NCBI RefSeq assembly: GCF_019059575.1
Contig: NW_024881966.1
Location: 124,001 to 188,000 of the forward strand
Reading direction: 5' to 3'
Source of the DNA: Amphibalanus amphitrite
Taxonomy: Eukaryota; Arthropoda; Thecostraca; Balanomorpha; Balanidae
Length of the DNA stretch: 64,000 bases
The notes below the pieces were generated by a model, which worked only from the letters and a program-made list of their open reading frames with translations, was not told where the DNA came from and searched no databases. Numbering within the stretch: the first letter of the stretch is position 1; every line of letters begins with the position of its first letter. This document shows positions 7,679 through 63,360 of this stretch, piece after piece. Both the position numbers and the translations under genes were made by a program.

Positions 7679-9505
7679 TGAAACTTGAAACTTGAAACTT
7701 ATTTATTCACAACGAGTCCGTGACTGCAATCAGTGGCTTTTCGTCATTGCACGTCACAGAAGTAAACAAACATCGTTGATGGGGGGCACTCGTTCACAGT
7801 CTCACAGCTCACTGCAAATCAGACACGACACACCACTCATGCCCGAATAACGTCTGCGAACGATACGAGTACAATAGGCGTCATTCGCGGCGGCTAGGTT
7901 AGGTTGCCGCTTGGTAGCGGTTTTAACCCGCGCGGGGCTGGGGGGGGGGGTAAATTTTACCCCCCCTCGCGAATTTTTGCGATATCTCAAAAACGGCGGC
8001 GCGCAGCGCCGCCAAACTTTCAGTACCTTTTCTTACATCAATTTGACACGTTCCCTGAAAATTTGAGCGAAATCCGTCGGAAAATTTTTGAGAAATTGAC
8101 GTTATAGTGACGTCATGTTCGCCATTTTCGCCTCAAAAACGGCAAAAGTTCAAACACCGCTAACATCTTCATTTTTTAAGGAATCAAGACGTAACAAAAA
8201 AGGTTATACGTAATTTTACTTTGTCTATCAAATGGCTATCTCGGTTTTTTGAAAATTTTGGATTTTGGCCTAATTTTTTTCAAAAAACTGACTTTTTTGG
8301 GAAAATCATTATAAAATCCAAAATTTGGAGTCTATCGAAAAAACCGGAATATATGTCAGAGAAGTGGTCTATGTGCACCTACATACCAAATTTTAGAAGA
8401 ATCGGTTCAAAAATGTGGGATTTATTCAAAATGTTATGACGTCACGACACACAATTTTTTTGAAAAATGACTTTTTTGGAAGTTCTAGACCTCGTACGGA
8501 AACAAAAATAGCACCATTCGATTCCCCGTGAAAAACTGCATCAGATAGACACCTTTTTAGGCCTTAACAACCAACTTCAAAATTTGACCTCACTTGACCT
8601 GACCTTGACCTGACCTCGACCTGAAATTCATCCAGAGGTGGTCCATATCACTTATTGAGTGTGCCTATTGAATTCTATGAGTAAAATGACCCATAAAACA
8701 TGTGTCGCACATGCCCTTTTCTATATTTTGTTTTTTGGTGACCTGACCTGACCTGACCTGACCTTGACCTTGACCTCTGAATGATATTGTATGCAACGAA
8801 TATTGTCTTGGTAGCCTAAGAACACGTTTTGGGCGATCAGTCTCAGTCCATGACTCCATTCTTCGGCAACTACGGTGCAAGGCCGATACTGTAGAAACTT
8901 GCAATTTGTACCCTTGACCTGACCTTGACCTTGACCTCAAACTTTAAATTAAGTACATGTTTTTAGTAGTCCGTGATGAGAGCTTTCGATTGGCGTTTGA
9001 ATTTTCCAAATCGGACCATTAGTTCGGGAGATAACAGGGGGGGGTAAAATTTACCCCCCCCCCCCCCCCCAGCCCCGCGCGTTCGGCTGGAGACCCCAGC
9101 CCCGCGCGGGTTAAAAGACATTCCGGGTGGTCTCGGTACGTCGTTGTATGCCTTCACAGCACTGTAGCATAAACGACTGCGTCCTGCCTCGGTGCGGATG
9201 CGCGGCACAGAGAGGAGACCCGCAGTCCGTGTATTGTGATCGTGCTGATGGTGAGCGGGAGGGCAGATAGTCTGAGCTATGGGTGACGGTACATGGTAGT
9301 CTAACAGTCGGTGAATGACTAGAACTCGGTGGTAAGTTATGAGCTCTTCAGCAGTAAACCAGCCCAGCGCTCGTACTGCATCTGAAATGTGATCAGTTTT
9401 CCGGCGTCCGGTTACAACACGTGCGGCAAAGTTGACTAATTTTTGGATACGACGCACCTGGGTTTTGTTGCAAATTCCATAGATAGACATGCAGTACCGC
9501 ATTGT
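7679..9505 (-). pseudogene. 3' fragment of a non-LTR retrotransposon, interrupted by a TTAA element
   Basis: Reading the minus strand from about 9,502, an open stretch carries the C-terminal region typical of L2/CR1-type reverse transcriptases (YGICNKTQVRRIQKLVNFAA, RVVTGRRKTDHIS, LPRIRTEAGRSRLCYSAV in related spelling). It is cut at 9,115 by the 1.2-kb TTAA element and resumes at 7,922. It ends in a tail of repeated CAAGTTT units at about 7,679-7,700 next to AATAAATAAG, the microsatellite 3' end of such elements. The catalytic part is missing; the 5' side ends at the 21-bp tandem repeat. Clearly a dead fragment. Confidence 0.7.
7927..9110. mobile_element. TTAA-flanked non-autonomous element A (piggyBac-like)
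   Basis: Flanked by TTAA at 7,923-7,926 and 9,111-9,114. Termini are CCCGCGCGGGGCTGGGG and its inverse. Just inside each end is a G-run, a palindromic core (TAAATTTTA / TAAAATTTA) and a C-run, then GGCGGCGCGCAGCGCCGCC on the left. The interior has no protein but many TGACCT words, including a TGACCTGACC-type run at 8,740-8,775. TTAA duplication and CCC-start ends are piggyBac traits; the transposase source is not in the window. The insertion splits a LINE fragment, proving mobility. Confidence 0.75.
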
Positions 9506-9526
9506 GGGAAAGACTACACATTTTTA

Positions 9527-9730
9527 CACTCAACTTGAAATAAGTCACACTCAAATTAAAAAAGGTCAAATTCAAATTAAAAAAGGTCACAATCAAATTA
9601 AAAAAGATCACACTCAAATTAAAAAAGGTCACATACAAATTAAAAAAGATCACACTCAAATTAAAAAAGGTCACATTCGATTTAAAAAGGTCATATTCCA
9701 ATTAAAAAAGGTCACATTCAAATTAAAACT
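9527..9730 (+). repeat. 21-bp tandem repeat, about 9-10 units, several carrying AGGTCA
   Basis: Units of the type CACACTCAAATTAAAAAAGGT repeat every 21 bases; several contain AGGTCA and others GATCA. Because 21 is divisible by three, the plus strand reads as a 7-residue repeat (QIKKGHI-like), which probably explains the long open frame here; I do not call it a gene. It abuts the broken end of the LINE fragment. Confidence 0.7.
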
Positions 9731-9895
9731 GTATTTCGTTTACCCTTTTCCAGCCATATATTTTGGCAACCGCTTGGCCGATTCATCTATCTGTAAGAAT
9801 CTTGGATTCATCAGCGGTCTGGAGCATCAGATATCCCAATCATTTCAAACACTGAATAACTGTTTTGATGTATCCGGGTAACCGTCCCGGCGCGT

Positions 9896-9897
<2 letters not shown>

Positions 9898-9927
<30 letters not shown>
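9898..9927. repeat. (CT)n microsatellite
   Basis: About 15 uninterrupted CT dinucleotides following GCGTGG, ending TTTC. Confidence 0.9.
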
Positions 9928-10400: not shown

Positions 10401-10547
10401 ACTCGATCAGATGTGTGTCCATGTAGCCCTGAGGCTGGTAGGTATATGTAGTGCTCTGCGCGTGCACGTGCGCACAGGGGCGTCGCCACGGATCCCCAAC
10501 TTGTACGGACATATTCTGTCAGCCGTAATACTCGTCAGATGCGTTAA

Positions 10548-11435
10548 CCCTCGCCCGTATAGGGGGGGGGGTCGAACGGACCCCCCCCCCATGGTTTTTC
10601 GCGAATAACTCGCGTAAAAAGCGGCCGATCGCGACGAAACTTTCAGTACCCTCGCGTTAATCAATTTTACACCTACCCTGAAAATTTCATGACCCTGACC
10701 CCAATGACCTTTGACCTGTGACCTACTTTTCGAGACTATGTTTGGCCGGAATCGCGATTCGGCGTATGTCGGCTCGCATTAGCCGCGCGTTTGCAGTCTT
10801 TTCGTGGTTTCAAGCGTTCAAACATGTGATATGATGCTGCCCCCATGCATTAGGGTGGGTGTCAAGGTCACCTGAAGGTCAGGTCAGGTCATTGACCTTT
10901 GGTGATCTCGGTTCACTTTTTCGAGTTTTACATGTTTCTAGGCCAGTTTTTGGAGCTGAATTCGAATTTAGCAGCCATATGAACATTTACGAAGTAGTTT
11001 TGGTGCCTTCGTAACATGTTACGAAGCTGTCAGAGGCGGTTGACACCTACTAGGAATATCCGGCAGGACCCCTACTGGTTGACCTGACCTGACCTGACCC
11101 GACCTGCACTAAATGCATAAAGACATCATCTGTGATCAAAACTAACATGATATTCGTGATCAGCGCCCCGAAAAACCCCATAGCAGCCACACTTTACGAC
11201 GTTCTAACAGGTCCCGATTTTCCCGACTTTTGGGTCATTGACCTGACCTGCAAGGTCAACCAATGACCTAGGACCTTAAAATTAGGTATCATCGGCTTCC
11301 TCTCGTCACGGGCAACACGCTCGTTTTTTCCGCGAAGCTCTAGCTTGATCAGGGGCGAAACGGCAAGGGGGGGGGTCCAACGGACCCCCCCCCCTTATAC
11401 GTTCGCGGCTGGAAAAACACCAATACGGGCGAGGG
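10548..11435. mobile_element. TTAA-flanked non-autonomous element B
   Basis: TTAA at 10,544-10,547 and 11,436-11,439. Perfect 13-bp inverted ends CCCTCGCCCGTAT / ATACGGGCGAGGG. Left: G10, TCGAACGGA, C10, then a TTTTTCGCGAATAACTCGCG segment; right: G9, TCCAACGGA, C-run. The interior is non-coding with AGGTCA clusters at about 10,870-10,890 and 11,240-11,270. Same family as element A but with CCCTCGC ends. Confidence 0.8.
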
Positions 11436-11439
11436 TTAA

Positions 11440-12757: not shown

Positions 12758-13675
12758 CCCTCGCCCGTAAAGTAAACGGTGTTTTGTCACCTTCGCCCAT
12801 GCGGGGGGAGGGGGGGTTGGTGCGACCCCCTGGCGTTTGAAAGCGGAGCGTCGTAGAGCTTAGCGGAAAAGACCAACGGATTGCTCTCCACGAGATCTCG
12901 CGATTGGTGGCATATTTTTTGGTCCTAGGTCAACATTTGACCTAATTATGACCAGTCAAAGGTCAAATTTTCGAAAAAATCTAACTTTTTTCAGATTTCC
13001 GCGCCGATTGCGGCAAACCGGTAAGAGATATCGACTTGAAACCTTCACTATCGTGATCCTTGATCAATTCTCTATCGTTTGGTGTGTATTTCGATGTCAT
13101 ATCTCTAAAAATGATGCGTTGGGAGCATCGGAAGTCTGCAAGGTCATTTGTGCAGTGGGTCACGTCAGGCGTGTGACGTCACTGACCTGACCCTGACCCA
13201 AAATGAACTACAAGAAACAACCGATGATGCCTGAAATGGATAGCAAATTCGAATTCAGGGCATCAAAATACCCCGAAAAGGCATACAAGTGCAAGAAGTC
13301 ATTACAGGTCAACCGAGGTCACTGACCTTACCTTGACCTTTAGTAACCTTCAAAATGTCAACGGACACTGTGCCAATGTCAAATCAGCCACCTATGATTC
13401 TAAAACAATCCATCAGTGTGTCAGGTCAGTCGGCATTTATACCAATGTGAAGCAATCTCCAATTTAGCGTAAATCTGGCCGGAGGTTGTTCCCTTTATGA
13501 CATCATAATTCCGTGACCTGACATGACCTTGACAAAAAAAATACCAAAAGTTTCGCAAAAGATGCCCCATAGGGTACTGAAAATTTGAGCACGCTATCTG
13601 AAATGGTTCGGCGTGTAGCTGAGAAAAACCTCAGGGGGGGGTTCACCACCCCCCCCCCCCCTACATGGGCGAGGG
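12758..13675. mobile_element. Element C of the TTAA family, target site decayed
   Basis: The left end CCCTCGCCCGTAAAGTAAACGG and right end ending GGGCGAGGG match element F (34.86-35.80 kb) in inverted orientation, including the AGCTTAGCGGAAAAGACCAA segment. G-run/C-run hairpins lie inside both ends. The flanks are GCAG and GGTA instead of TTAA, so it is older or was rearranged. Non-coding, with several TGACCT clusters. Confidence 0.65.
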
Positions 13676-14375
13676 GTAGAGTGTAGAAGCCATTCCCACT
13701 GATGGGACTCGAAGCGATGCAGCTAGGTAATGCATAAGGCTGATTGGCGAACTTCAGCTGGTAGACAAGACAAGGAAACGTTCTCAAAAATCAAATCCAC
13801 ACGTAACAAACGTATTTCAAGAGTGCACGTATCTCGTTGTCGTTGTATCCGTTATTCCTCGTCGGACCTATCGGCTTTCTGAATACCGAGAGACGTCTAG
13901 AGTGTGTGTGTGCGTGGGGGGGGGGGGGAACCCCGCCGCCGTTTCGCCCATTAAGCCTTGCAAACAAAAACAACACCCAACGATTCACAATCAAGTTAAA
14001 AGTGTCAGATCAGCATGTGACCTCTGAGGTCAGGTCACGTGCACAAGTGCAGGGTGTTCATTAGCGAATGACGTAAAGTAAGCCCCCTCTGGAGCCCCAA
14101 ATGATCGCCGGCCATTGTGCAGCCGAAGCCTTCAACGACTCACGGCAGCGTTTAGTTCATCAAGGGTCTTGGACTCTTGAGTTCGCTCCGCAATTTGAGT
14201 TGCTTGAGGTTAAACGGTGAAGTCCAAGCAGGAGAAATCCAGACTGCAGAGTGACCAGGGGTGCTGGGATCTTGTTCAGTTGCTCGAAAGTGCAGAGAGT
14301 CTAGCAATTCTTTAGTAATCTGACTAGTATTCACGTTCGCAATGGCTTAAGAAACCTGGGAAGGCATTTTTAAAT
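13676..14375. other. Intervening sequence without recognisable gene
   Basis: Contains a short GT run leading into a G12 tract at about 13,900-13,928, and one AGGTCAGGTCACGTGC phrase near 14,025. No coding signal. Confidence 0.4.
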
Positions 14376-19985: not shown

Positions 19986-20338
19986 TGTTAGGCACGGGCC
20001 TTGAAATGTAAACAAAAGGGTAACCAATGAGCAGGCGTGAGACAGCCGAAACGGTTATTAGCGCAATGATGATTGGTGCGGCAGTTAAACCAATGAGCGA
20101 GCGCGATGCATCTGAGGCGGCTGTGAGGAAGGCGGTCATTGGCAGTTGCGTACGGCTGGCCATGATGCGTGAACACAGAAAATTGGCGCCAGATTGTGGA
20201 GAGCCGCGTGTTGAGGCGGGTTGTGCGAGGGTGGGCTCGCGGGGTATACCGACAGGTGTTGAGAGAAATAGAGTTAAGAAGAGAAAAAGGTTTGTTTACG
20301 CTCGGCTAAGGATGAATGAAGGTTAGCACACACTAACA
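19986..20338 (+). repeat. 5' LTR of the gypsy element
   Basis: 353 bases bounded by TGTTAG...CTAACA. It should carry the promoter and polyadenylation signals for the element RNA. It contains repeated CCAATGAGC-type phrases (CCAATGAGCAGGCG, CCAATGAGCGAGCG), which resemble CCAAT boxes. It encodes no recognised protein although a 99-codon frame crosses it in both LTR copies. Confidence 0.95.
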
Positions 20339-20413
20339 TCAGCGGTGGGATATAACTTATTGCCTTTTTTATTGTGTAAAGTGTTGCAAGGCTGCGAATG
20401 AAGAAAAATCAAG

Positions 20414-23400
20414 ATGGCGCTGGACCGGAACAAAGGTGAGACGGCGGTGAGTAAAGAAATTGGAAATGCTGTAACGGCGACTGCCGGAGGTCTCGCTGGT
20501 TGGAGTGGGTTCGCTGGAGTGCCACCACCCACATGCACTGACGCAGACGATGCCGAGGAATTTCTGCGGAAACTACGTAGGTCCGCGCGCGCTAATGGCT
20601 GGAGTGAGCAGAGACAGCTGGATCTTCTTCCGGCACTGCTACTGGACGGGACAAGCTGGGTGGCGGATGAGTTGGAAAATAACCCACCAAAAGACATGCA
20701 AGAGGCCACGGAAATGATCAGAAACCTGCTCTGCCCCAAAGAAAAGAGAAAAGTGCTGCTACACAGGTTCTATGAAGAAAGAATGAAGGTAGATGACAAT
20801 CCTCGTTTGTTTGTGCTGAAGCTACAGCAGTTGTTGCGTGGGGGCATGCCAGAGTTGTCCAAGGAGGCACAAGACAGCTTGCTATTGGAGCAACTGCCTC
20901 GAGTGGTACCAAGTAAGTGGACCATGAAGCTGCTGGATGCTGATGCTAGCTCTGTGGAAGCTGTCATTCGGAAGCTGGAGCGACTGCAGACGATGGAGCA
21001 GCTGCAAAAGGAGATGACTGCTCAAGAACGTCAGGAACCACCACTGGTACGAACTGTTGTAACCGAAAGACGGTGCTACAACTGTGGCCAGTTAGGTCAC
21101 ATCAAGAGGTTCTGCCCTCGCGCAGTGCAACAAGGGTACGGCAGGGAGAACAGAGGCTTCACACAGGGAGCTGCACGCACAAGACCACCAGCGAAGTACC
21201 AACAACACCGACAAGAAGGACCGCGACCGGCAGCCCGACAGACGGGTGAAGCTGGAGGAAGTGATCAGCCTCAGCCACCAACAGGTAGGGCCGAAATAAA
21301 ATGTTTTCAGTGTGGAGGTGTGGGCCATGTCAGATCAGTGTGTCCAAGTGTGCCCCAACATGATGTGCGCCGGCTTGGCACAGCTCCAACTGGTGAAATG
21401 AGGGTTAACATGCTGCTGAATGGGGTGAAAATGGAAGGTGTCCTTGACACGGGGAGTGCCATAAGCCTGCTCAACATGACTGTGGTGGAGGAGCTTGGTT
21501 TGACGGTAACCGCGATGCCAGAAGTGAAATGTTTGGCTGCTAATGGATCTGAGGTATCTCTGATGGGTCAAGTGGAGTTGGAGATAGAACTGGGCCCAGC
21601 CAGAGTTGTTCACCAGCTGTGTGTGTCTGCGGGGCTCACGGACCCTCTGCTCATTGGACTGGATCTTCTGAACAAGTTGGGCGTGGTCATCCACTGCGGC
21701 ACAGGTCAACTGCGGGTCGGAGATGAACCCGTGGAGAGATGTGAGTCTCAAGAAGTTTCAACCAGATGTCCGGTGGTCTGTGCTGCACGGTCTCAGACCT
21801 TCATCCGTGTCAGTCGACTGGTACAACCGCAGACACAGCTGTTCCAGCCATCAGATGTTTCGGGGGTGACGATCGCGCCGGCAGTTCACCTCAAGCACCA
21901 AGGAACACCGGTTCGGATCCTGAACATGGGGGATGAAGATGTCACCATTCCAGCAGGCACAGTGCTCGGAGTCCATGAGTCTGTTCATGTTGCTGAGCTG
22001 CATCAGGGACAGAAGAGAAAGGAAGAACGTGTGATGCAGAGTCAACCAGAGGGACCACAGCTGCCATCGTTGGATCACCTGAACGTGCCAGAGAAGAAGC
22101 CGTTCAAGGATCTTCTGGAGGAGTATCAAGATGTATTCTCGCAGTCACCTGATGACATCGGGAGCTACCAAGGTCCTCATCAGCTCGTCATCACAACCGA
22201 GGCCGCGCCTGTCCAACAACGTGCGTACCGCACTCCACTTCACCTACGGGGACAACTGAAGGAGAAACTGGACAGACTTCAAGAACAGGGAGTGATCGAA
22301 GAATCCAATTCTCCCTGGTCATCACCCGTTGTACTCATACGGAAGAAAGATGGAGGAATACGGTTCTGCTGTGACTACCGTGCCGTGAATGCAGTCATAA
22401 GACACGATGCCTACCCCCTGCCAAGAATCGAAGACCTCATCCATGCTACACGGGAAGCCAGGATCTACTCAGTACTTGACCAGAGGTCAGCCTACTGGGC
22501 TGTCCCTATCGCTCCAGAATCACGAGAGGTGACGGCGTTCATCACCGAATATGGGTTGAAACACTGGACACGTCAGCCCTTTGGGCTTAAGACGAGTCCG
22601 GGGACATTTCAGCGAATCATGGAGGATGTGTTGGATGGTTTGAACTGGGAAACAGCAGTGGTCTACCTGGATGATGTCATTGTGTACAGCTCGACGATGT
22701 CAGAACATCTGGAGGTGCTGAAGCAGGTGCTGGAGCGCTTCCGTCGAGCCGGCTTGAAGCTGCATCCTGAGGAATGCCAAGTGGCGGTCAAGAAGGTGAA
22801 CTTCCTGGGACATCAGATCGACGAGACGGGGATCAGTCCGTCAGTGGACAAAGTGGAAGCCATAAAGGACTGGCCGAGACCAAGCAACGTCAAGGAAGTG
22901 CGCCAGTTTCTAGGTCTCGTGGGCTACTATCGTCAGTACATCCCGCACTTTGCTGACAAGTCGGTGCACCTCACAAACCTGCTGCAGAAGGACTCGAACT
23001 TCGAGTGGACTGATGACTGCGTAGACAACTTTCAGACCCTGAAGAAAGACCTCCAGTGGTACCCGGTACTGCAGTCTCCTGACCCAACGGACAAGTTCGT
23101 GTTGACAACGGACGCAAGTGGATCGGGATGGGGAGCTGAACTGAGCCAATCGAAGGGCGTAGTTGCTTTCGCTTCAGGGAAATGGACGCCCGCAGAGAGC
23201 AACTGGAGCGTCACGGAGCGCGAACTGGGAGCGGTGGTGAAAGCGACGTCGAAATTTCACCACTACCTGGTGGGAAAATCCTTCCTACTGAGGACCGACC
23301 ATGAGGCGATAAAGTTCCTGCATCGTTCGAAGTCACCGTCAGGAAGATTGTTTCGATGGCTTGAGCAACTGCAACAGTTTGACTACACCGTTGAGCACGT

Positions 23401-29692: not shown

Positions 29693-29696
29693 TTAA

Positions 29697-46509: not shown

Positions 46510-47631
46510 CGCATTGGTCATGTCAAGACACGTCGAATGACATATAGGTTGCTTGAAAAGGTCAAGTTTTATGTTGACCTCATGTGACCTCGAATGGCTT
46601 TTGGTTGACGTTTACACATGATCAGTCTCATTTGCTGTATTTGAAGTATATACTATATACTATATACTATATATAAGTCACTGGCTACGATTTTGTCATT
46701 CCTTTTGATCTAAGCATTCATTTAGAGCCTCAGGATGACAAAAGTGACATAATTAGGGTAATATGACTGACGTATCAGTAAAATAGCCTATAGAAGGATA
46801 CGGGGTGTAACGAAATTATCCGGCCACCTTTCTTCTTGCTGTGATTAAGAAACAAGACAGCCTGAGGTTTTCCTTTTGATGAAGATATCGCCAGCTTTCA
46901 TAAGATTTAGAAATACCTGTAACATTCCAGCTACTGGGTTTTCAAGAAGTGGGTTTCATGTGGACAGACGCCGTATTAGCATGTATGTGCTCACATACAG
47001 TTGGGCGGTCCTGGTGCCGGGTGTCCCCTTATTCACTTCCCACTGAACAAAAATCCTTAAGATCTCTATGAATTCAGGATGACAACTATTTCCAAGTCGG
47101 CGCCCGTTAGTCCAGAAGGATAAGAGCTTCTCCTGATGTCACTTCTGATTCTCCTACGGACTTAAATGTAGCGCTCCAGCCTGCACGAAGGCAGCGTGGC
47201 TTGAATCAAAATCAATGCGTTTTTAGAAATCGAGCCCTCCCGTGCCGTCCGGTTGAGCGGCTCCAATTATTTGTTTGCCAGGATGCTGCTTCGGTAATAC
47301 TCGTCACTGAAGGTGGTCTTCTGTGACACAATGCACAGCTGGAACATCACACATAAGCTGAACATGTCCCAGATCTGGATCTTGGCCGGATGTTTGACGC
47401 CGGTGACGGCCGGCACGTTTGAGTAATGAGTTACTGGCAGCCAACACAAGCCGCTTTGACGGTTCAAAGGACAATACAGCGCGAATAGCTGCCCACTCCA
47501 CCAAACGCTCATGTCTTCCCTCGACCAGTGCAGTAGATGTGTCTTGGCGTGAGGCCAAAGGTGGTGCACTAGCTATTTTCCCGTCCATTGCGTTGTCTTT
47601 TTCAGTTTGATAGGCAGAAGAACCAAGTTAA

Positions 47632-49640
47632 CCCGCGCACCGACGGGGGGGGGCGGATATCCGCCCCCCCTGAGGTTTTTCGCGAATAGCGGGGAAACCG
47701 CGGCGCGTAGCGCCGCGAAATTTGGTATGACTATAACCTCATCAATTTTACACATGATGTGCAAGTTTGAACCTCCTACCTTTTAACCCGCGCACCGACG
47801 GGGGGGGGGGGCGGATATCCGCCCCCCCCCCTGAGGTTTTTCGCGGATAGCGGGAAAACCGCGGCGCGTAGCGCCGCGAAATTTGGTATGACTATTCTCT
47901 CATCAATTTTACACAGGGTGTGCAAGTTTGAACCTCCTAACTTTTAAGGTCAGGTCACCAGGTCACTTTGAATGACCCAACCTCAAGTCACTTTTTTGCA
48001 ACTTTGTCACCGTGCCAGAGCTACAGTAGATGTCGGAGGCCTTTGAAAGTCGCAGGATGTTATAAGGTCATTAGTAGCTACAATTTGTATATCTCGGAAT
48101 TTTGATGTCGGTGACCTAAGGTCAGGTCAATTTCGCGACCTCCCCATTATAAGTCAATGGGGGAAAAATCAACTCCCTGTTTTTACCACTAAAACGGGTC
48201 GGAATGGCCCCATATGCCATACATGACTTCACATACGATCAACCTTCACTACCTTGAGGTCTGTTTTGCTGTTGGGCAGCTGTAAGGTCATGTGACGTCA
48301 TCAAAGGTCACCAAAGGTTTTTTGCCAATAACTCCTTACAGGAACAAGATACAGCCGCGCGGATGGTCTCATTGTGTTCAGCTCGTCAAGACGCATCGAA
48401 TGATATACATGATGACCTCGAGGTCACGTGACCTGAGGTCAACCTTTGACCTTGACCTTTCGAGGTCAACATATATATCATTCGATGCGGATTGACGAGA
48501 GGATCACGATGATGCCCTTAGTTTGTTCCTATCTTGACTACTTCGAAAGTTATTCGAGAAAAACCCTCTCCAAATCTAGCGCCGCCATTTTGACTTTTTC
48601 GACCCCTGTGACGTCATCTTTGACCTGACCTGAAAATGACCTTAGTAAAAATTGTAGACCTTGTCCGTGCGTATCCGATGCCGTTTACCGCTTGTCGCTA
48701 TCTTGCTTCGTTCTCGAGATCTCAGGGGGGGGCGGTCATCCGCCCCCCCCGTCGGTACTAAGGTGGCGCAGACCCCCGTCGGTGCGCGGGTTAAGGTCAG
48801 GTCACCAGGTCACTTTGAATGACCCAACCTCAAGTCACTTTTTTGCAACTTTGTCACCGTGCCAGAGCTACAGTAGATGTCGGAGGCCTTTGAAAGTCGC
48901 AGGATATTATAAGGTCATTAGTAGCTACAATTTGTATATCTCGGAATTTTGATATCGGTGACCTAAGGTCAGGTCAATTTCGCGACCTCCCCATTATAAG
49001 TCAATAGGGGAAAAATCAACTCCCTGTTTTTACCACTAAAACGGGTCGGAATGGCCCCATATACCATACATGACTTCATATACGATCAACCTTCACTATC
49101 TTGAGGTCTGTTTTGCTGTTGGGCAGCTGTGAGGTCATATGACGTCATCAAAGGTCACCAAAGGTTTTTGGCCAATAACTCCGTACAGGAACAAGATACA
49201 GACGCGTGGATGGTCTCATTGTGTTCAGCTCGTCAAGACGCATCGAATGATATACATGATGACCTCGAGGTCACGTGACCTGAGGTCAACCTTTGACCTT
49301 GACCTTTCGAGGTCAACATATATATCATTCGATGCGGATTGACGAGAGGATCACGATGATGCCCTTAGTTTGTTCCTATCTTGACTAATTCGAAAGTTAT
49401 TCGAGAAAAACTCTCTCCATATCTAGCGCCGCCATTTTGACTTTTTCGTCCCCTGTGACGTCATCTTTGACCTGACCTGAAAATGTCCTTAGTAAAAGTT
49501 GTAGATCTTGGCCGTGCGTATCCGATGCCGTTTACCGCTTGTCGCTATCTTGCTTCGTTCTCGAGATCTCAGGGGGGGGCGGTCATCCGCCCCCCCCCCC
49601 GTCGGTGCGAAGTTGGCGCAGACCCCCGTCGGTGCGCGGG
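47632..49640. mobile_element. TTAA element N (1.0-kb subfamily), split by a nested copy
   Basis: TTAA at 47,628-47,631 and 49,641-49,644, ends CCCGCGCACCGACGGGGG and inverse. It is interrupted at a TTAA in its own body by element O; without O and one TTAA it is about 1,001 bases, matching element D along its length. Its sequence stops at 47,782 in the CCTACC+TTTTAA phrase and resumes at 48,791 with TTAAGGTCAGGTCACC, exactly as uninterrupted in element D. Confidence 0.85.
47787..48790. mobile_element. TTAA element O nested inside element N
   Basis: 1,004 bases between TTAA at 47,783-47,786 and 48,791-48,794. Nearly identical to element D, including G12-CGGATATCCG-C10 on the left and the GTCGGTGCGCGGG end. 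Insertion into an internal TTAA of a sister copy shows both target choice and recent movement. Confidence 0.9.
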
Positions 49641-49644
49641 TTAA

Positions 49645-50139: not shown

Positions 50140-50571
50140 AATAGCTGTCCCTAAAACTGTTTCCGAAAAAATCAGCTATTTTTGCAGTTTTTGCCCCCTG
50201 CAGGCAAAACCGTTGACGTTAGGTCAAATCTGAGGGAGTTACTCAGAAAGGGCGTTAATAGGGCTATCGAATGCGCTTTTCCGCGGCGCTGTAGCTTTAT
50301 TGGTTCCCGAGTTATGCGTTGGCTTCCTGGAAATTGTCGACATTCGACCTGAAAATCGGCGAAATTTTGCCTTCAATGACCTCTGGTGACCTGACCTTTG
50401 ACCTGACCAAAAAAGTGACCGAAGTGATTTCGTCATTATTTTTGGCGCTCTTTCGAACCCCGCCTTCCGCGTGTCGCTACGTGGCCCAGGAGCCGAGTTA
50501 GAAGGGGGGGGGTGTTCAAACACCCCCCCCCAGCAGGGCGTGGAAATCCAGGACCCCCAGCCGGGCGCGGG
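50140..50571. mobile_element. Element G, right part of a TTAA element (H subfamily)
   Basis: Inverted match to the left third of element H: GGAAATTGTCGACATTCGAC, AGTGACCGAAGTGATTTCGT, G9-TGTTCAAACA-C9, and the end CCGGGCGCGGG followed by TTAA at 50,572. The opposite end is missing, so it is truncated at about 50,140. Confidence 0.65.
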
Positions 50572-50869
50572 TTAATCCTTTACTTAGAACCTCCATTTGC
50601 GCTTCACTTAGTACCCTCGTACTACTGTTCACTACCTGTTTTGCCTTTCCTTTTCCTGTGTTTTTATCAGCTTTCTGAAGAGCGTCAAACTTTTTTTTTC
50701 TGTACACTCGCAACCTGCGTGTATTCCTTATCTGCCCCTTTTTCGACTAGTAGCCGAAAAACGTACCTACCTTGAATTAAGATCTCTAGTCGTAAAAGCT
50801 TGAAATCATATATGTCAACGGCTGTTCAAATTTTGCTTGCTCTTCTCACATTTGATGATTTGTTTCCAG

Positions 50870-51033: not shown

Positions 51034-51338
51034 GTGAGATCCTGTGGAAGACCAAATAATAGGGGAGAGTGGGGTAAGATGCCCAGGTTGGGAAAGACGC
51101 CCCACCCCCTCTAGCGGCAAAACAAAGAATCGAACCTGGAAATTAATGTTCTTAGCGTGAAGTGGAAGACTGCCTTGGTAACTGCACAAAAATTTGCGAA
51201 GCTCAGTTGGGCAACGGCTGGCTGGTGATTGCATGTTTTTTATTTGCTTCTTTCGAAAAATATTTTGGTGTCAAAACATTGTAAATATCAAAGAAGGTAA
51301 ATATTTTTATGTCTCTTGCTATGGTCGTGATACATTAA

Positions 51339-52531
51339 CCCGCGCCCGGCTGTGGGTCCTGGATTTCCACGCCATGCTGGGGGGGGGGGGGGTTGAACAC
51401 CCCCCCCCCTTGTAACTCGGCTCCTGGGCCATGTAGCGATACGCGGAAGGCGGCGTTCGAAAGAGCGTCAAAAATAATGGCGAAATCACTTCGGTCAATT
51501 TTTTGGTCAGGTCAAATGTCAGGTCACCAGAGGTCATTGAAGGCAAAATTTCGCCGATTTCCAGGTCGAATGGCGAAAATTTCCAAGAAGCCAACGCATA
51601 ACTCGGGAACCAATAGAGCTACAGCGCCGCGGAAAATCGCATTCGATAGCCCTATTAACGCTCTTTCTGAATAATTCTCTCAGATTTGACCTAACGTCAA
51701 CGGTTTTGCCTGCAGGGGGCAAAAACTGCAAAAATAGCCGATTTTTTCGGAAACAGTTTTTTCTGCAATAACTTTTGACCCAAGCCCTGTACGAGCTTAC
51801 TTTTACCGGCATCGTGTTCCTCTCGTCAAGACGCATCGATTGAACTATAACTTGACCTTGAAAGGTCAACTTGAAGATTTGACCTCAGGTCAAGGTCATG
51901 ACCTGACCGGAAAGGGTCATGTTGCATATCAGTCGATCCGTATCGTCGAGCTGAACACATCTAAGGCGTTTTCATCGCTATAGCATGCCTCTATCAAAAG
52001 TTGTTTGCGAAAAACTGTTAGATATCACTCGTGACCTAAGATGACCTCAGGGAATAAACAAGGGTCACGGACACCATTTTCATGTTCAGTGTGTCTAAAC
52101 CACTTGTAATTCGGTGTTTGGGAGTGTTTATAATGTCTTTCGTCCAAAAGAGGCGCATTTCAATTTTCTCCCATTGACTGATAATGGGGAGGCCGCAAAA
52201 TTGACCTGACCTTAGGTCATCGATATCAAAATTCTGAGATATACATTTTGTACATGCTATTGTTCTAAGCAATCGCTGAAAGTTTCAAAGCGATCGGTCA
52301 CTCGGTGTAGCTATGACAGACATTGAAACTTTTTATGAGGTGAGGTCACTTCAAGTGACCTGGTGACCTGACCTTGAATGACCTTGGCCTGAAATTTTCC
52401 CAACATGTGTAGAATTGATGTATGATAAGGTGTACCAAAAACGGCGGCGCGGAGCGCCGCCGTTTTTGAGATATTCGCGAAAAACCACAAGGGGGGGGGG
52501 GTGTTCAAACACCCCCCCAGCAGGGCGCGGG
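51339..52531. mobile_element. TTAA-flanked non-autonomous element H
   Basis: TTAA at 51,335-51,338 and 52,532-52,535; ends CCCGCGCCCGGCTGTGGG and CAGCAGGGCGCGGG. Hairpins G12-TTGAACA-C10 (left) and G11-TGTTCAAACA-C7 (right), with ACGGCGGCGCGGAGCGCCGC beside the right one. 1,193 bases, rich in TGACCT. Partial relatives: element G and 60.4-61.0 kb. Confidence 0.8.
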
Positions 52532-52739
52532 TTAACATGCGTGTACTGTGTCCCAAACAGTTTGTTTCAGGGTATAGTTGTATGGCTAACAAATTGTACT
52601 GATTTAATGTTAATTCGGTACTTTGGGGTAAGATGCCCCCTGCCCTGATGGGGAAAGACGCCCCCTAAATCCGTAGGCTGGCCTTCAAGGAACCCGTCAA
52701 ATCATTTATTACATACTTGTGATGAGAGACAAAACCCGA

Positions 52740-53189: not shown

Positions 53190-54354
53190 CCCGCGTCCCG
53201 TAGGGCTACCGGCGGACCCTACCACCCGTAGGGGGGCCGTTTCGGCCCCCCCTAAGATCTCGGAAATTTACCGGCCGATTTTCAAAATTCAAACGGCGTT
53301 CGATAGCCCCACCCGGGAACTACCTTGTGACCAAATTTCATTGACCTAGGTCAAACCGATAACGTCACAGGTCAGGTCAAAGGTCGGATTTTCACCGTTT
53401 ACAGGCATTTCAAGGAATGTGTTGTGAAATCGAGTAAATTGGTAAGTTGTTGAAAACCATCGATGGTACATTGTTCGTCGAACACATACTTCGCTATCTG
53501 AGGTCACTGATACCAGGTCAGGTCACAGAGGTCAGGTCACTGGGGGTCACCTGGGGTCACAATATGAAAGTGTCGTGTGATACATGTTTTATGGTCCATT
53601 TTACATGACAAATGCGATGATGTGGGTCAGGCAGCTTTTGGGGCCAGCTTAGTTCACGTTTTGGTGAAGGTCAGGTCAAGGTCAGGTCATATTAGGTCAA
53701 ATTTCAAAGTTGATATTTTTGCATAAAATAGGTATCGATTCGATGCAGCTCGTCACGGGGAGTCTAATGTTGGTCTTTGTTTTGCCCTCCGTGGTCTAGA
53801 ATTGACAATATTGAGTTTGAAAATTTGACGTCATCATTTTTGAACAGTTTTTTTCGCTATAACTTGGCCAAAAAACGAGCTATCGATCTAAAACTTGGTA
53901 TGTAGATAGAAGACGGTACGTACTATCACATATATTCCGGTTTTTTGATACTTAAAAAAACTTTTTGATTTTTTGGCTAATATATCCAAAAAAATGCATT
54001 TTTGATTTTTGGGGGTCAACACTCAAAAATTTCAAAAATCCGAGATAGCAGTTTTGTAGCCCTGTCAATTCTACACCTTTTATGTCTTGATCATTTTTCT
54101 GATCTTCAAAGCTGTAGGCATGACAGCTCTTCTCGCGAAGGTCTTTTTTCGGTCGAAAATGGCAGAACATGACGTCATTCTGACGTCATTTGTGGCCAAC
54201 CTATCAAAGCCTCTGGAAAAATGTTTGGTCCCAATGTGTAAACTTGATGCCCGGAGGGGTCCTGAAAGTTTGGTGGCGATATCTCCAGCCGTTTAGGAGA
54301 TATTGAGGGAAAAGGACAGGGGGCGTTTCGGCCCCCCCCCTTACGGGGCGCGGG
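53190..54354. mobile_element. Element J of the TTAA family, target decayed
   Basis: Left CCCGCGTCCCGTAGGG after ATAA; right TTACGGGGCGCGGG before TAGT. Hairpins GGGGGGCCGTTTCGGCCCCC and GGGGGCGTTTCGGCCCCC. The body matches element K in inverted orientation (for example the ACAAATGCGATGATGTGGGT segment). AGGTCAGGTCA clusters at about 53,515-53,560 and 53,670-53,700. Confidence 0.65.
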
Positions 54355-54624
54355 TAGTGCAGGGGGCATCTTCCCCAACGCCAGGGGGCGTCTCTCCCAC
54401 CCTGTGGGGTAAGATGCCCCCTTTCACTTCTTCAGGAAAATGCTTAATAGCATAAAAGCTATCATATTTCAGGCACGAAAGTGTGTTATTTTTTGGATAA
54501 AAATGATGTCGGCTTCCGTTGAAACTCCAATTTTTTGCTTTCCGATCGTCATTTTGGAATAATTACGGAGCGAGCGAAGCGAGCGTAGTCTTTCCTTAGA
54601 TTAACGGAAATTTCTTAGTATGAG

Positions 54625-55170: not shown

Positions 55171-55599
55171 TGGAGGTACCCCCTCAAAATTTCGCACGTG
55201 CAAGGCTCACCCTCTCGCTCGCTCCGTTAGACGGTCCCAAAAGGCGCTATACTGGTATATGAGATTGTAAAACCCTGGGCATCTTACCCCACTCTCCCCT
55301 ACCTATCACTCCTGACTTGGGAGGAGGGGGCAGATAGCTGCAGATGCAGATAATTATTTTGCATATCCTTCCATCATATGCCCATTGCATGTAATATCAA
55401 TGTAATACTACAGGCATACAAAGTAACAGATCACATCCCCTCACATGGATCACTTAGACGGCATTATAGCGAAATCGCTTCACAATCCGCCTGTATTGTG
55501 TCAGAACTTATACTTCAGATGAATTTCTTCAAATCATGTTGTTGAAGTCAGTGCTATGCTCTCCACGTAATTAATCATTATGTAATGTCTTTGCATTAA

Positions 55600-56756
55600 C
55601 CCTCGCCCCGCTTGGGGGGGGGGGCAATACGCCCCCCCCCTGTGGTTTTTCCTGAATAGCAAGAAAACGGCAGTGCGCAGCGCCGCCAAATTTTGGGTAC
55701 CTTCCCGGGCATCGATTTGACACCTTCACACAAAATTTCAAGTCACAGGTCACCCTGGTTCAGGAGTTACTGAGGTCAAACTGAGGTCATGTTCGAGCAA
55801 AAATGAGCAAAAAACATGACATCTTGAAACGCTCACCAAATCTACAGTTAACAGGTAATTTTAAAGTTTTTTATGTGGTCGTGTAGAGAAAAGATGGCGC
55901 TACAAAACTGCTATCTCGGATTTTCAAACTTTTGGGATTTTGACCCCCAAAAATAAAATAATGATTTTTTTTTTAAAACTCAAAAAATTCCAAAACTTTT
56001 TTTGAATTTCGAAAAAACGGAATATATATGATAGCCCTACCCTCTTCTATCTACATACTAAATTATGGATCGATATCACTTTTTTGGCCAAGTTATAGCG
56101 AAAAAATGTTCAAAATTGATGACGTCACATTTTCAATCTCAATTTTTAGCAATTCTAGACCATGTAGCGAAAAACAAAGACCAATATCAGACTCCCCGTG
56201 TCGAGCTGCATCGAATCGATACCCATTTTAAGCAAAAATATCAAGTTTGAAATTTTACCTTATTTGACCTGACCTTGACCTGACCTTCACCAGAACATAA
56301 CCTAAACTGGCCCTAAAGGTTGCCTGACCCACATAATCGCATTTGTCATGTAAAATGGACCATAAAACATGCATCACATGATATTTTCATATTGTGACCC
56401 TCAGTGACCTGACCTCTGTGACCTGACCTGGTATCAGTGAACTCAAATAACAACATAAGTGTTTAACGAACAATTCCCTATCGATGATTTTCAATGATAT
56501 GCATTCAACTCGATTTTACAACACATTTCTTGAAATGCCTGCAAACGATGAAAATTCGACCTTTGACCTGACCTGTGACGTCATCGGTTTGACCGAGGTC
56601 AATGAAATTAGGTCACAAGGTAGTTCCCCGTTGGGGCTATCCAACGCCGTTTGCTGCTTGTCGCTATGTTGCATGGTTCTCGAGATCTTGGGGGGGGGCA
56701 AATTGCCCCCCCCCCCAGCGGGGCGCGTTGCTCGGCAGACCCCAGCGGGGCGCCGG
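55600..56756. mobile_element. TTAA-flanked non-autonomous element K
   Basis: TTAA at 55,596-55,599 and 56,757-56,760. Ends CCCTCGCCCCGCTTGGGG and CCCCAGCGGGGCGCCGG. Hairpins G11-CAATACG-C10 and G9-CAAATTG-C12. 1,157 bases, non-coding, with TGACCT clusters around 56,265-56,430 and 56,560-56,575. It lies in the intron before the 56,973 exon. Confidence 0.8.
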
Positions 56757-56972
56757 TTAATGTTATGGTGTATACTGTATATTAGATAATAACCATGTAC
56801 GCATGAGCACAGGCACATAACTGTAAAATTGCCCAGTAGTGAGAAGTCGGCTGTGTCGGTGTCAGTGTCGGCTGTGTCCGTGTTTGACCACATAGTGTCA
56901 GCGGCCTCCCGACCCGGCGGCATGGCAGTTCCGTCCGACTGCAGTCAGCTGACACAGCTCTCACTCCGACAG

Positions 56973-58409: not shown

Positions 58410-58429
58410 GTCAGTCAGCTGTACACACA

Positions 58430-58612
58430 GACCAGACCCAGACACAGACCAGACACAGAGCAGACCCAGACACAGACCAGACACAGAGCAGACCCAGACC
58501 AGACCAGACCAGACCAGACCAGACCCAGACCAGACCCAGACCAGACCCAGACCAGACCCAGACCAGACCCAGACCCACACCAGGCCAGACCAGGCCAGAC
58601 CCAGATCAGACC
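58430..58612. repeat. Minisatellite of CAGACC / CAGACCCAGAC units
   Basis: Irregular 5-, 6- and 11-base units (CAGACCAGACCCAGAC). Explains all long frames on both strands here. Lies just after the LRR-like exon. Confidence 0.9.
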
Positions 58613-58668
58613 AATTGAGCTGTAATCGCCACGCACTTTGAGAATGTGGATCGCTCATGATTATTCAA

Positions 58669-59834: not shown

Positions 59835-59838
59835 TTAA

Positions 59839-60394
59839 CCAACGCCCCGTTGGAGGTCCAGGATTTCCACACTCGGCAGCAGCTGGGATATTTCGTCACC
59901 CGCCACTTGCTGGGGAGGGGGGGGGTAAACGTCCCCAGTCGACAACTCGAGAACCAATAGCCGCAGCGACAAGGGCGAGGCGGCAAACGAAAACTCGTGA
60001 CAAGACGCTTCCGTTGATGTGAACTTTGACCTCTAGCGCCTAAACGGTTGACCTGAGGTCAAATCTGACGACTTACTTCAGATAGCCCAATTCATTGCGC
60101 ATCTTACCTTTTTTGCAGATCAAAGCTATCTGTCTTAGTTTGGGCGCGAGACCGGCTAAAGCAAAGCGCTGCACGTTTGACCAAAAAGTGCGAAAATTTT
60201 GCATTGATGACGTCATTTGACCTTGAAGATGTTGACCTAGGATCACCAAATTTGCACCACAAAGAGTTCTTATGCGGGCCTACCCACCCCCCAAGTTTCG
60301 TGTTTCTAGCATTTCTGGGAGCCGAGATAGCAGGGGGGCAGAATATGCCCCCCCTCGAGGGCGCGTAATTCTCAGACCCTCTCCAGGGGACGTG
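59839..60394. mobile_element. Element I, TTAA-flanked, diverged
   Basis: TTAA at 59,835-59,838 and 60,395-60,398. Left CCAACGCCCCGTTGGAGG, right CTCTCCAGGGGACGTG. Inside: GGGGAGGGGGGG...CGTCCCC on the left and a GGGGGGCAGAATATGCCCCC hairpin on the right. It sits at a TTAA in a copy of the H subfamily whose body resumes with TGACCTCTGGTGACC. Confidence 0.55.
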
Positions 60395-60398
60395 TTAA

Positions 60399-60594
60399 TG
60401 ACCTCTGGTGACCTGACCTCTGACCTGAACAAAAAAGTGACCGAAGTGATTTCTTCCTTATTTTTGACGCTCTTCGAACGCCGCCTTTCCGGTATCGCTA
60501 CGTGGCCCAGGAGCCGAGTTAGAAGGGGGGGGGGGGGTGTTCAAACACTCCCCCAGCAGGGCGTGGAAATCCAGGACCCCCAGCGGGGCGCGGG
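60399..60594. mobile_element. Right part of an H-subfamily TTAA element
   Basis: Matches the end of element G: AAGTGACCGAAGTGATTTC, G13-TGTTCAAACA-C5, AGCAGGGCGTGGAAATCCAG, end GCGGGGCGCGGG before TTAA at 60,595-60,598. Confidence 0.65.
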
Positions 60595-60598
60595 TTAA

Positions 60599-61025: not shown

Positions 61026-61029
61026 TTAA

Positions 61030-61665
61030 AAATGGTAAAGTCGGTATATCACATCCAATTGCCGCTTCCTACCCCCCCCCCCGCTCAACCAGCTATGGCT
61101 AGACTCCTGCAATCTGCACCTATGCGCCCACAATGTTCTAGCCGTTTCTACGCCCATGACAGACGCTGCAGTTATTGAAAATCGAAGGTGGAGTGCGCAC
61201 GTGCGCGCGCGCGGCACAATCTCCCTTCTCACTCTTGTGGAGGGTTAGGCCTATGAGTACCTAGTAGCATGCCAAATTTCAACACTATCGGCGCAGACGT
61301 TCCAAGGCTGTAGCATTGTATTTTTTTCGACACCCCTCACTCTGCACGTGCCACGTGCTAAATTTGGTACCCACATGGTTCGGGGTATGCTCCATTCGTG
61401 GCAAAGGGATGTAGCTCCCCATCAATGAAAGCCACTTGTCAATCAGACATGTGGTTGCAAAGTTATAAGCTGTCAATTAGCGTCGTTTGGCCGGGTCGGG
61501 CTGCTAATACTTACATTTTTCCACTAAACCACAAAGGACTCGCTCGCACTTCGCGCTCGCTCGTAATTATCATTCTTTGTATATTATATAATATTTATCA
61601 ATATTTTTTAAATTCATAAAGTCAATTTGTTATTGTAATCTTGCATACATCTCTATCTTTCGCAG
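61030..61665. other. Upstream region of the integrase gene
   Basis: No recognised coding sequence. Has CGTGCGCGCGCG near 61,200 and CGCTCGCACTTCGCGCTCGC near 61,540. Ends in the acceptor of the first integrase exon. Confidence 0.4.
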
Positions 61666-62330
61666 GTAGACCGTTCGTCGTTTCTGCAAAGATGTCTCAA
61701 AAAGAACAGTTCTATAAACTGGTTCACGAAACCAAAATATCTTCAAACTCTGCTTTGATTACCGATGAAAAGTACGAGATTATAAAGGAAGAACTGCAGG
61801 GAATCAGCAAAGGCGCAAAACCGTCGGGCACCGCGAAACGCTATCGCATCTGGCAGAAGTACAGGCTAGTCAAGTTCGGATCAATTGAAAAGGTTGTAGA
61901 TAAGAAAAGTGCAAAAGAAATCGTGCGGGAATCAGATTTGTTTGATGTGATTAATGAACTCCATTCTTTGGCTGGGCATTGCGGAAGAGACAAGACGCTT
62001 ATGGAAGTTCAAAAGCACTATGCAAGCGTCAGCAGAAAAGTCGTCTGGGCATTCCTCTCAACTTGCCAAACGTGCGAGCAGAAAAAGCCTAGGCCTGGCC
62101 AGAAGGTAGTGACTAAGCCTATTCTCAGCAACGACATGAACTCCAGAGCCCAGGTTGATCTAATAGACTGGACGAGTGAAAGCTCAAAGGGATTCAGATA
62201 CATTTTAACATATCAAGACCACCTAACCAAGTTTGTCGTTTTGCGGCCCTTAAAATCAAAAAGGGCGGAAGAGGTGGTATTTCATCTCATCGACATATTC
62301 TGCCTGTTTGGGGCTCCAAACATCTTGCAG
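61666..62330 (+). CDS. Ginger/KRBA2-type integrase gene, exon with zinc-binding and first catalytic segment
   Basis: Acceptor ATCTTTCGCAG, then ATG at 61,692 and 213 codons to the donor CAG|GTAAAG in phase 0. Seen: an N-terminal charged region; an HHCC zinc-binding module (LHSLAGHCGRDKTLM, then TCQTCEQKK) at about residues 90-140; the integrase core start AQVDLIDW with Asp156; YILTYQDHLTKFVVLRPL, a conserved core strand. This is the layout of gypsy-integrase-derived proteins such as KRBA2 and Ginger transposases. It is either a domesticated host gene or a live transposon; no terminal repeats were found. The next exon follows 1.2 kb downstream. Confidence 0.75.
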
Positions 62331-62766
62331 GTAAAGTAGCTTTGTCATATTGTATTTTTTTACCGATATATAGGTGAAAGCAATCATGAACGTTCTCTGT
62401 TTTTATTTTTTCTCTGTTTTTAAGTGCAAAAACAGTTTATCTCACCCTCATTGAATGTTAAGGGAATTTCATCATTAAGACCCTACATTTTGTCTATGGT
62501 CTGCATCTGTACTATATTATCATGTATTACCGGTTGTTTTAATATATTCCATCTCATCAGCAGCAGCAGCCAGCAAGCGCTTATTCGTAAAATATGTACG
62601 GCTCTCCAAGATATTAGGGTGGGGTTGGCCGCTTCAGTCTTTAGAAAATTACTTGGATATGAGCGAACATGCACTGGTCGTTCTTTTGCGCATTATAGCA
62701 GATGCTGGAGTTGATATAACTGACTTGATTAGAAGAAAACCAGAGACATACATAGTTTCAGATTAA

Positions 62767-63360
62767 CCCTCGCACTTGTAGGGGGGTCGGATGACCCCCC
62801 CCCCATGGTTTTTCGCGAATAACTCGCGTAAAACGCGGCGGATCGCCGCGAAACTTACAGTACCCTCGCGTTGATCAATCTGACACGTACTGTGGAAATT
62901 TCAAGTCGATGTCATGTCAGGTCATCAAGTCATGACGTCATATGTCAGGTCATGTTTGGACGAAATCGGCAGGTTTTGCGATCTGTCGCACGATGGTGCG
63001 CGTTCTTGCTTCCCAGCGCATGAGTATGCATTCTATGAGAGTTTATTGGTGTTTATGGATGTCTAGACATCGCATACAGTTGACTCAAGGTCAAGGTCAC
63101 GCAAGGTCACGCTTGTTAGGAGCATCTTCTAGGTCAATTTAGTCGCTTCAATTAGCTGTTTTTTTTTTGCGAGTTTGAGCGTCAGGATGATTGCTTAGAG
63201 GTGAATGGATGTCAGATTCGAGCTCAGCGCCTATGAATACACTATAGTTGACCCGCCATGTGTCAAGGTCATCCGTGGTCATCCGAGGTCATCTGAGGTC
63301 ACTGACCTAGGATTACCTTTGATGACCTTTTCACCTAAGGTCAAGATTAGGGTAATTTGA
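62767..63360 (+). mobile_element. Element L of the TTAA family inside the integrase-gene intron
   Basis: TTAA at 62,763-62,766, left end CCCTCGCACTTGTAGGGG, hairpin GGGGGG-TCGGATGA-C9, then TTTTTCGCGAATAACTCGCG and ACGCGGCGGATCGCCGCG. The body matches element M. No right end with G/C runs was found, so it is truncated or decayed at about 63,360. AGGTCATC-type words cluster at 63,270-63,310. Confidence 0.65.

Follow-up and report, generated by a model that had tools for sequence, protein, structure and literature searches.

AGGTCA sites at nucleosome-length spacing in piggyBac-type elements and a satellite of Amphibalanus amphitrite

We analyzed a 64,000-nucleotide stretch of the genome of the balanomorph Amphibalanus amphitrite (assembly GCF_019059575.1, contig NW_024881966.1, positions 124,001 to 188,000 of the forward strand; hereafter the window, to which coordinates refer unless another locus is named). 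In it, the nuclear-receptor half-site AGGTCA (TGACCT on the other strand) is concentrated in several families of TTAA-bounded, piggyBac-type non-autonomous elements and in a 478-bp satellite, where it forms clusters about 170 bp apart. The sites themselves, the ~170-bp grid, a 10-bp rhythm in the transposon spacers and the slower divergence of transposon sites than of their flanks were observed directly. Judging from the sequence, we assign a probability of roughly 0.5 to the reading that these elements and the satellite are nucleosome ladders whose linkers hold docking sites for a host AGGTCA-binding protein. An earlier sequence-only reading of the window had drawn attention to the hexamer and missed the main point, which is the ladder and a second word, TGACGTCA, placed on it.

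The enrichment reported by that reading was confirmed. With 351 copies in 64 kb, counted on both strands, AGGTCA ranked first among all hexamers, ahead of a poly-C/G word (254), and the remaining 179 words with this base composition averaged 29.6 copies, the most frequent being GGTCAA (163) and AAGGTC (130), both of which overlap AGGTCA, and GCTGAA (80). Because same-composition words were enriched neither in the window nor in the genome sample described below, the enrichment withstands comparison with shuffled hexamers, and the hexamer rank together with these controls rules out chance or base composition as its cause. The great majority of copies (319 of 351) fell within the TTAA-type elements (202 sites in 15,580 bp, or 13.0 per kb), the satellite (111 sites in 6,872 bp, or 16.2 per kb) and a 21-bp tandem array (6 sites in 203 bp). 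The rest of the window held 32 sites in 41,345 bp, or 0.77 per kb, slightly more than the chance figure of ~0.49 per kb given earlier, and its small clusters included those at 14018-14032 and 46559-46585. The more detailed counts of the first reading also stood: the satellite consensus carries the nine sites stated for each unit, element E5 (its element D; 28686-29696, 1,011 bp including the TTAAs) carries 18 where about 18 had been given, and the hexamer is indeed frequent in other TTAA elements and recurrent in the 21-bp repeat. A long interspersed nuclear element (LINE; 2 sites in 4.3 kb), a gypsy element (5 in 6.1 kb) and seven other repeat copies in the window (none) showed no enrichment, which rules out a general property of the local repeats. 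Across 12,152 bp of elements, exact AGGTCA occurred 161 times and the 18 one-mismatch words 167 times in total, led by ACGTCA, which is part of TGACGTCA (34), and GGGTCA (29); the background for words of the same composition was 5.3 each.

AGGTCA clusters follow one another at ~170 bp, on a grid that also takes in the TTAA ends. Outside the satellite, pair distances in the window peaked near 165, 330, 500 and 670 bp. Measured from end to cluster to end in seven TTAA elements, 33 of 36 intervals were 135-222 bp long, with a best period of 170 bp; the outlying values were 679 and 505 bp, near 4x and 3x 170, and -2 bp, a boundary artefact. None of 1000 random placements matched the periodicity of these seven elements. 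When each family was represented by a single element, a single satellite unit was added and only internal intervals were kept, 17 of 18 were within 135-222 bp (the remaining one being 505 bp) and 0 of 2000 simulations was as regular at each of the exclusion distances 60, 80 and 100 bp. The centre-to-centre distance averaged 172 bp (SD 20; 24 internal intervals below 260 bp), a length that suits a nucleosome-repeat unit.

The second word, TGACGTCA, was present in 25 copies in the window against ~1 expected, and once AGGTCA and some repeats had been masked it was the most enriched 8-mer apart from poly-C (21 copies, 26-fold). Of its 14 copies in elements, 10 had an AGGTCA no more than 16 bp away (P = 0.001), a count that excludes the 47-49k copies and includes other related copies. 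It also occupies vacant grid positions, at 8108 and 8437 in element E1 and at 56120 in element E10, the latter within the 505-bp gap of that element. With both words counted, and with the boundary of the 60k element taken as 59835-60598, 37 of 39 intervals were 135-222 bp long (mean 174.7, SD 16.8), the others being 329 and 352 bp.

The spacers between clusters carry a 10-bp rhythm of AA/TT/TA steps. The spectral peak at 10.0-10.2 bp reached 3.16 in the full set of 107 spacers and 2.88 in a subset of 39 without mutual similarity, compared with 1.5 in control DNA; the spacer set excluded the satellite, the 21-bp array and the 47-49k copies, and the controls were 683 150-mers lying 400 bp or more from every site (one run used 600 of them, another all 683). 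None of 5000 control resamples reached 2.88, the highest being 2.84, and for AA/TT steps alone 1 of 5000 was as strong. In a smaller set of 24 spacers, 0 of 300 dinucleotide shuffles had an equal rhythm. Spacers averaged 146 bp from edge to edge, and the linker flanks were AT-richer, with a GC content of 0.411 at 22-52 bp from cluster centres versus 0.468 at 60-125 bp (58 half-spacers, P = 0.002).

The assembly holding the window comprises 807.6 Mb in 2,644 contigs, from which we took twenty 10-kb stretches on 20 other contigs, chosen by contig number (7,500 of 200,000 letters being N). AGGTCA was the third-ranked hexamer of this sample, with 564 copies, words of the same composition averaging 81; single stretches held 5 to 73, and 16 of the 20 had at least 10 where ~4 were expected. 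The top palindromic 8-mer was TGACGTCA (50 copies; mean 4.3). Distances between AGGTCA sites had maxima near 165, 330 and 520 bp and a smaller one near 670 bp, and the ratio of distances of 140-200 bp to those of 220-280 bp, 753 to 110, was the largest of 128 hexamers, the median word giving 1.2. From TGACGTCA to AGGTCA or to another TGACGTCA, distances peaked at 140-180, 300-340 and 480-500 bp; only 10 of the 50 copies lay within 30 bp of an AGGTCA, versus 9.4% for random positions. In all, 22.2 kb of the 200-kb sample was similar to window elements and held 343 of the 564 sites, so the sample mostly shows further copies of the same families.

Between copies, the sites diverge more slowly than their surroundings. 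BLAST of window elements against the sample yielded 116 alignments, 40 of which were at least 250 bp long and below 98% identity; dropping the satellite and overlapping alignments left 27, and leaving out one with fewer than 12 site columns left 26. Pooled divergence was 4.9% in sites versus 11.0% at other non-CpG bases (P = 7e-19; like the other P values for conservation, this one assumes independent bases and alignments, an assumption that does not hold), with higher site identity in 24 of 26 alignments and lower site divergence for all six query elements. In these alignments AGGTCA was retained in 494 of 581 cases, compared with 14,506 of 27,032 for other non-CpG words. A comparison within the window gave 68 of 87 versus 3,008 of 6,909 hexamers retained and better-conserved sites in 19 of 21 alignments, some of them mutually overlapping. 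Selection on the hexamer, as the sequence-only reading had suggested, thus gains support in the transposons and none in the satellite.

Most of the elements are bounded by TTAA and have inverted ends of the form TTAACCC(G/T)CGC; the ends of E1, E2 and E5 mirror each other, and those of E9 and the degenerate copies match less well. All are on the plus strand unless stated. Family F1 consists of E1 (7923-9114), which has inverted termini and clusters centred at 8602, 8757 and 8926, E10 (55596-56760; clusters at 55771, 56276, 56418 and 56588) and the 53k copy on the minus strand (approximately 53197-54400), with TGACGTCA at 53826, 54170 and 54181. To F2 belongs E2 (10544-11439), with four clusters and intervals of 169, 168, 205, 165 and 184 bp; its relatives are the 36k element (approximately 36000-36850), with degenerate ends, and E11 (approximately 62763-63400), whose 3' end was not found. 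F3 is represented by E5, which has five clusters at intervals of 146-190 bp and an inverted duplication inside, and by an E5 copy at 47628-49644 that is split by a second one (host 47628-47786 and 48791-49644; insert 47783-48794). This nested insertion lies at an internal TTAA of E5, beside the first AGGTCA cluster, and duplicated the TTAA target; the empty site is at 28842. Adjoining E5, with one TTAA common to both, is E6 of family F4 (29693-30642), in which a 188-bp internal module with TGACGTCA and TGACCT is duplicated. A second E6 copy is found on the minus strand (34855-35802), and E4 (approximately 12758-13690) is a degenerate relative with 88% identity to E6 over 337 bp. F5 comprises the partial E8 (50153-50578) and its relative, the 60k element (59835-60598; intervals 210, 176, 191 and 182 bp), while E9 (51335-52535) is a mosaic, F5-like on the left and F3-like on the right, with 20 sites in six clusters at intervals of 155-192 bp. 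Inside the TTAA ends of most families we also noted palindromes of a G-run and a C-run, with runs of 7-17 bases (e.g., 28703-28729 and 29623-29652).

The terminal ~150 bp can be aligned across families, most pairs having ~63-75% identity. For internal spacers, clear alignments are confined to the groups E1/E10/53k, E2/E11/36k, E5/E9-right, E6/E4 and E8/E9-left/60k: in a BLAST comparison of 52 site-masked spacers at a cut-off of E 0.01, cross-family internal matches were few, with E of at least 0.006, and no match was obtained between satellite and element spacers. The repeats had been called unrelated, a description that fits the element interiors and the satellite and does not fit the TTAA ends, where related families have terminal modules in common. 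Descent of all copies from one ancestral element is accordingly borne out in part, by the common ends and the tandem duplication in E6, and goes no further than marginal matches in the interiors and satellite; one homologous sequence behind every site is ruled out by their failure to align.

The satellite (38740-45611) consists of two arrays of ~4.3 and 2.6 kb, inverted head-to-head and joined near 43025, with three clusters per unit spaced 140, 168 and 170 bp. It has at least 261 matches in the genome, and on further contigs (e.g., C365, C1667 and C537) plus and minus units again occur near each other. On both sides it is flanked by 11-bp CAGCCCAGATT repeats, so that the whole resembles a foldback element. 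The 21-bp array (9526-9728, plus strand) has 9.7 units. A different, GC-rich satellite of 196-bp units, built of ~21-bp GGGCCCTCAGAGGCCA-like subrepeats, occupies L025:3591-7696, where AGGTCA copies are mostly 193-197 bp apart; its units mostly read AGGCCA, so that AGGTCA there seems to have arisen by point variation, and it was not used. Also set aside were three IMG/VR contigs in which AGGTCA arrays have short spacing and form no ladder.

Should the nucleosome-ladder reading be correct, each ~146-bp stretch with the 10-bp AA/TT/TA rhythm should wrap a nucleosome, the linkers between wrapped stretches would hold AGGTCA clusters and at some positions TGACGTCA, and the element ends, being on the grid, would also fall in linkers. 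Nucleosomes would then occupy the grid, and a host protein for plain AGGTCA, most likely a nuclear receptor, would occupy the linkers; NR2C/HR78 or NR2F/COUP types would best fit the mixed orientations and spacings. Binding may keep ends and linkers open, or gather copies, in cells where mobilisation pays, and we propose that the sites are retained for this reason while the remaining element drifts. Transposons of this kind would specify the nucleosome array that forms on them and maintain host-factor sites in its linkers, which would offer a direct handle on how DNA transposons cope with chromatin; they would also spread receptor-type sites in very large numbers through the genome. The reading predicts phased nucleosomes on the elements named above and a single host protein that pulls down both satellite and transposons.

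A host nuclear receptor is a plausible binder as far as the genome sequence goes. We found 77 zf-C4 matches (exons, some apparently from duplicated haplotypes), and 10 of the 16 examined carry a CEGCKG or CESCKG P-box, which we take to be the AGGTCA-reading class. The closest solved relatives of five DNA-binding domains were NR2C2 (L048), COUP-TF1 (L054), RXR (L053), the ecdysone receptor (L059) and NR5A2 (L046); an NCBIfam scan of the receptor exons gave no match, the library being prokaryotic. Among the marks of receptor response elements, AGGTCA exceeds shuffled words; neither a preference for a receptor-type half-site spacing, such as DR1 or DR4, nor a 5' extension was seen in the window or the sample, isolated sites having no TCA extension. 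The word is sharp, with little flank preference, and occurs in both orientations and at many spacings. Among 209 adjacent direct pairs in the sample, 34 were spaced at 10 bp (a direct repeat with a 4-bp gap, DR4) and 32 at 6 bp, and spacing-10 pairs are also expected from three 5-bp repeats minus the middle copy. This geometry does not point to RXR-type dimers or FTZ-F1/ERR monomers. Overlapping sites could presumably not be filled together, which favors a monomer binding along a homotypic cluster over a dimer of fixed geometry; a zinc-finger or other protein may read AGGTCA instead.

Several results weigh against nucleosome ladders with receptor-type docking sites. The pair geometry fits no well-known receptor dimer or extended monomer, 85 of the 209 direct pairs overlapping at 5 bp and only 9 being DR1. 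Sample DNA that lacks similarity to window elements has 198 sites in 170.8 kb and a weak ladder, with a modest rise at 160-220 bp. In the word control (31 words, seven elements), AGGTCA ranks second behind GGTTAA, which scores higher because it sits at the element ends. As for the rhythm, 235 of 5000 control resamples equal the spacer value for steps of two G/C bases (SS), the control DNA has a GC content of 0.487 versus 0.437 in spacers, and the rhythm is unphased relative to the spacer midpoint (0.166 versus 0.160 by chance). Only 12 of 24 internal spacers measure at least 147 bp edge to edge, which means that outer sites would in some cases have to lie under a nucleosome. The conservation trend is reversed in 2 of 26 sample alignments (E2/L027 and E10/L022) and 2 of 21 window alignments (E5/48k and E2/E11), and local alignments may be anchored by the common sites. 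Nor is AGGTCA the best-kept word, ranking 10 of 376 in the sample and 17 of 120 in the window; of the nine words above it in the sample, four overlap it (ACCTGA, CCTGAC, CAGGTC and CTGACC) and the rest are rare, with 25-37 occurrences. Finally, satellite sites show no extra conservation, with 19 of 753 letters deviating (2.5%) versus 92 of 5,263 at other non-CpG positions (1.7%) over 14 units.

This behavior of the satellite is what a purely neutral history would give, in which an ancestral ~170-bp AGGTCA module was tandemly duplicated and spread among TTAA elements, AGGTC slippage multiplied the copies and nothing binds them now. The common terminal modules, the E6 188-bp duplication and the inverted duplication in E5 agree with it, as do the many overlapping 5-bp copies and the one-mismatch excess in the elements, which implies a per-base decay of ~7%, a level of divergence also found among members of a family. 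We nevertheless regard such a history as unlikely, given that pooled site divergence is less than half that of neighbouring bases, that exact sites persist though internal spacers of different families are only marginally similar, and that a second, different word fills vacant grid positions. A role in centromeres or heterochromatin, in which AGGTCA would serve a chromosomal-domain protein common to satellites and dispersed repeats much as a CENP-B box does, each nucleosome having one cluster, would account for the one-cluster-per-nucleosome layout in which satellite and dispersed elements are alike, and a binder other than a receptor would suit a clean hexamer that lacks dimer geometry. The dispersal of the elements, seen in the 22.2 kb of element-like sample DNA and the 16 of 20 site-rich stretches, speaks against such a role, which we consider the least probable of the explanations weighed here.

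Scarcely more probable is a reading of AGGTCA as the binding site of the piggyBac-type transposase responsible for moving these elements, or of a host protein derived from a transposase. A shared transposase was among the causes offered by the sequence-only reading, and the TTAA bounds, inverted termini and TTAA duplication at the nested insertion favor it, as do the at least 116 piggyBac-type (PF13843) matches in the genome, many of them in open frames. However, the 12 loci examined carry zero or two single AGGTCA in the transposase domain, without clusters, and not one of these loci has TTAACCCKCGC ends at its boundaries, three having other TTAACCC ends (L032, L033 and L042); on this evidence transposase sites were set aside as the first-choice reading. 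AGGTCA also runs through whole interiors and is present in the satellite and 21-bp array, which lack TTAA ends. At L033:595-3594, an autonomous piggyBac whose ends read TTAACCCATTA interrupts an E2-like copy, at the internal TTAA beside an AGGTCA cluster. Its flanks align to E2 on either side of the internal TTAA at 11276, which adjoins the last AGGTCA cluster, so the ladder there belongs to the small element; at L043, too, the clusters lie outside the transposase gene, in or beside small elements. Nested insertions at TTAAs next to clusters thus number two, E5 having one internal TTAA and E2 two. The window elements themselves contain no transposase frame among open frames of at least 150 amino acids. 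They resemble piggyBac-type non-autonomous TTAA elements (miniature inverted-repeat transposable elements, MITEs) in their target duplication and in ends starting CCC; no autonomous partner with these exact ends turned up among the 12 loci.

Beyond the nucleosome-ladder reading itself, we tentatively raise a broader one, which we hold to be possible and distinctly less secure: that selection on whole transposon superfamilies of this lineage has targeted the chromatin fibre that they form and not their sequence as such, separate families and a satellite having each reached or kept a common code by which transposons template chromatin and seed receptor-type sites. The code would consist of the 10-bp rhythm, the ~170-bp pitch, AGGTCA or TGACGTCA in nearly every linker, and ends in linkers. 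Extrapolated from the sample, receptor-type sites would then number hundreds of thousands or more over the 800-Mb genome. Alu elements, which carry AGGTCA half-sites, are an instance of a dispersed repeat seeding nuclear-receptor half-sites; they are a single family of short interspersed elements, and we know of no nucleosome-length ladder in them.

The closest precedent found is that of the CERP2 and CELE2 MITEs of Caenorhabditis, which are bound by HIM-17. Carelli et al. 2022 (PMC9757741) describe pairs of transcription-factor motifs in their inverted repeats, and a 10-bp periodic TT bias, tied to nucleosome positioning, in CERP2 and more weakly in CELE2. Motif-bearing MITEs with a 10-bp rhythm are thus common to both cases. 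The nematode elements carry one m1m2 motif pair and act in germline promoters, whereas here AGGTCA and TGACGTCA take up to six linker positions per element, in ladders of several nucleosomes and in several families with non-alignable interiors plus a satellite. The present case extends CERP2-type MITEs to multi-nucleosome ladders, a different word, and several families and a satellite. By analogy, our elements may work like HIM-17-type regulatory MITEs; we do not claim membership.

For the candidate binders, PMC13187458 reports that NR2C/F orphan receptors bind TCAGGG variant telomere repeats in cells with alternative lengthening of telomeres and remodel chromatin there. In both cases a tandem repeat carries a receptor-type half-site, with receptor binding reported for the telomeres; the setting differs in being telomeric and human, with hexamer tandem repeats and neither transposons nor a 170-bp grid. 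COUP-TF, according to PMC2811727, binds AGGTCA as DR0 to DR13 and as inverted and everted repeats, a tolerance resembling the mixed arrangements here, and has its highest affinity for DR1, which is rare in our sample. A literature search of titles and abstract openings, with most subscription papers and all preprints outside its reach, returned no account of such motif-bearing ladders in transposable elements or satellites.

Turning to other features of the window, the LINE (1045-5387) has a first frame with a PHD finger, an endonuclease and a reverse transcriptase whose best matches are environmental contigs, at up to 72% identity. Other protein comparisons also ranked environmental contigs highest, with a barnacle protein (37% identity over 43% of the query) as the top-scoring named arthropod hit, and the match to the ecdysone receptor suggests an arthropod or another moulting animal. 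The Ty3/gypsy element has a long open frame (20402-25048) between identical 353-bp repeats at 19986-20338 and 25693-26045, the identity of which indicates a probably recent insertion. A CAGAC/CAGACC microsatellite (58428-58613) lies within an open frame that begins like a host exon and has no Pfam match, and 47 near-perfect copies of TGTGCG occupy 33874-34153.

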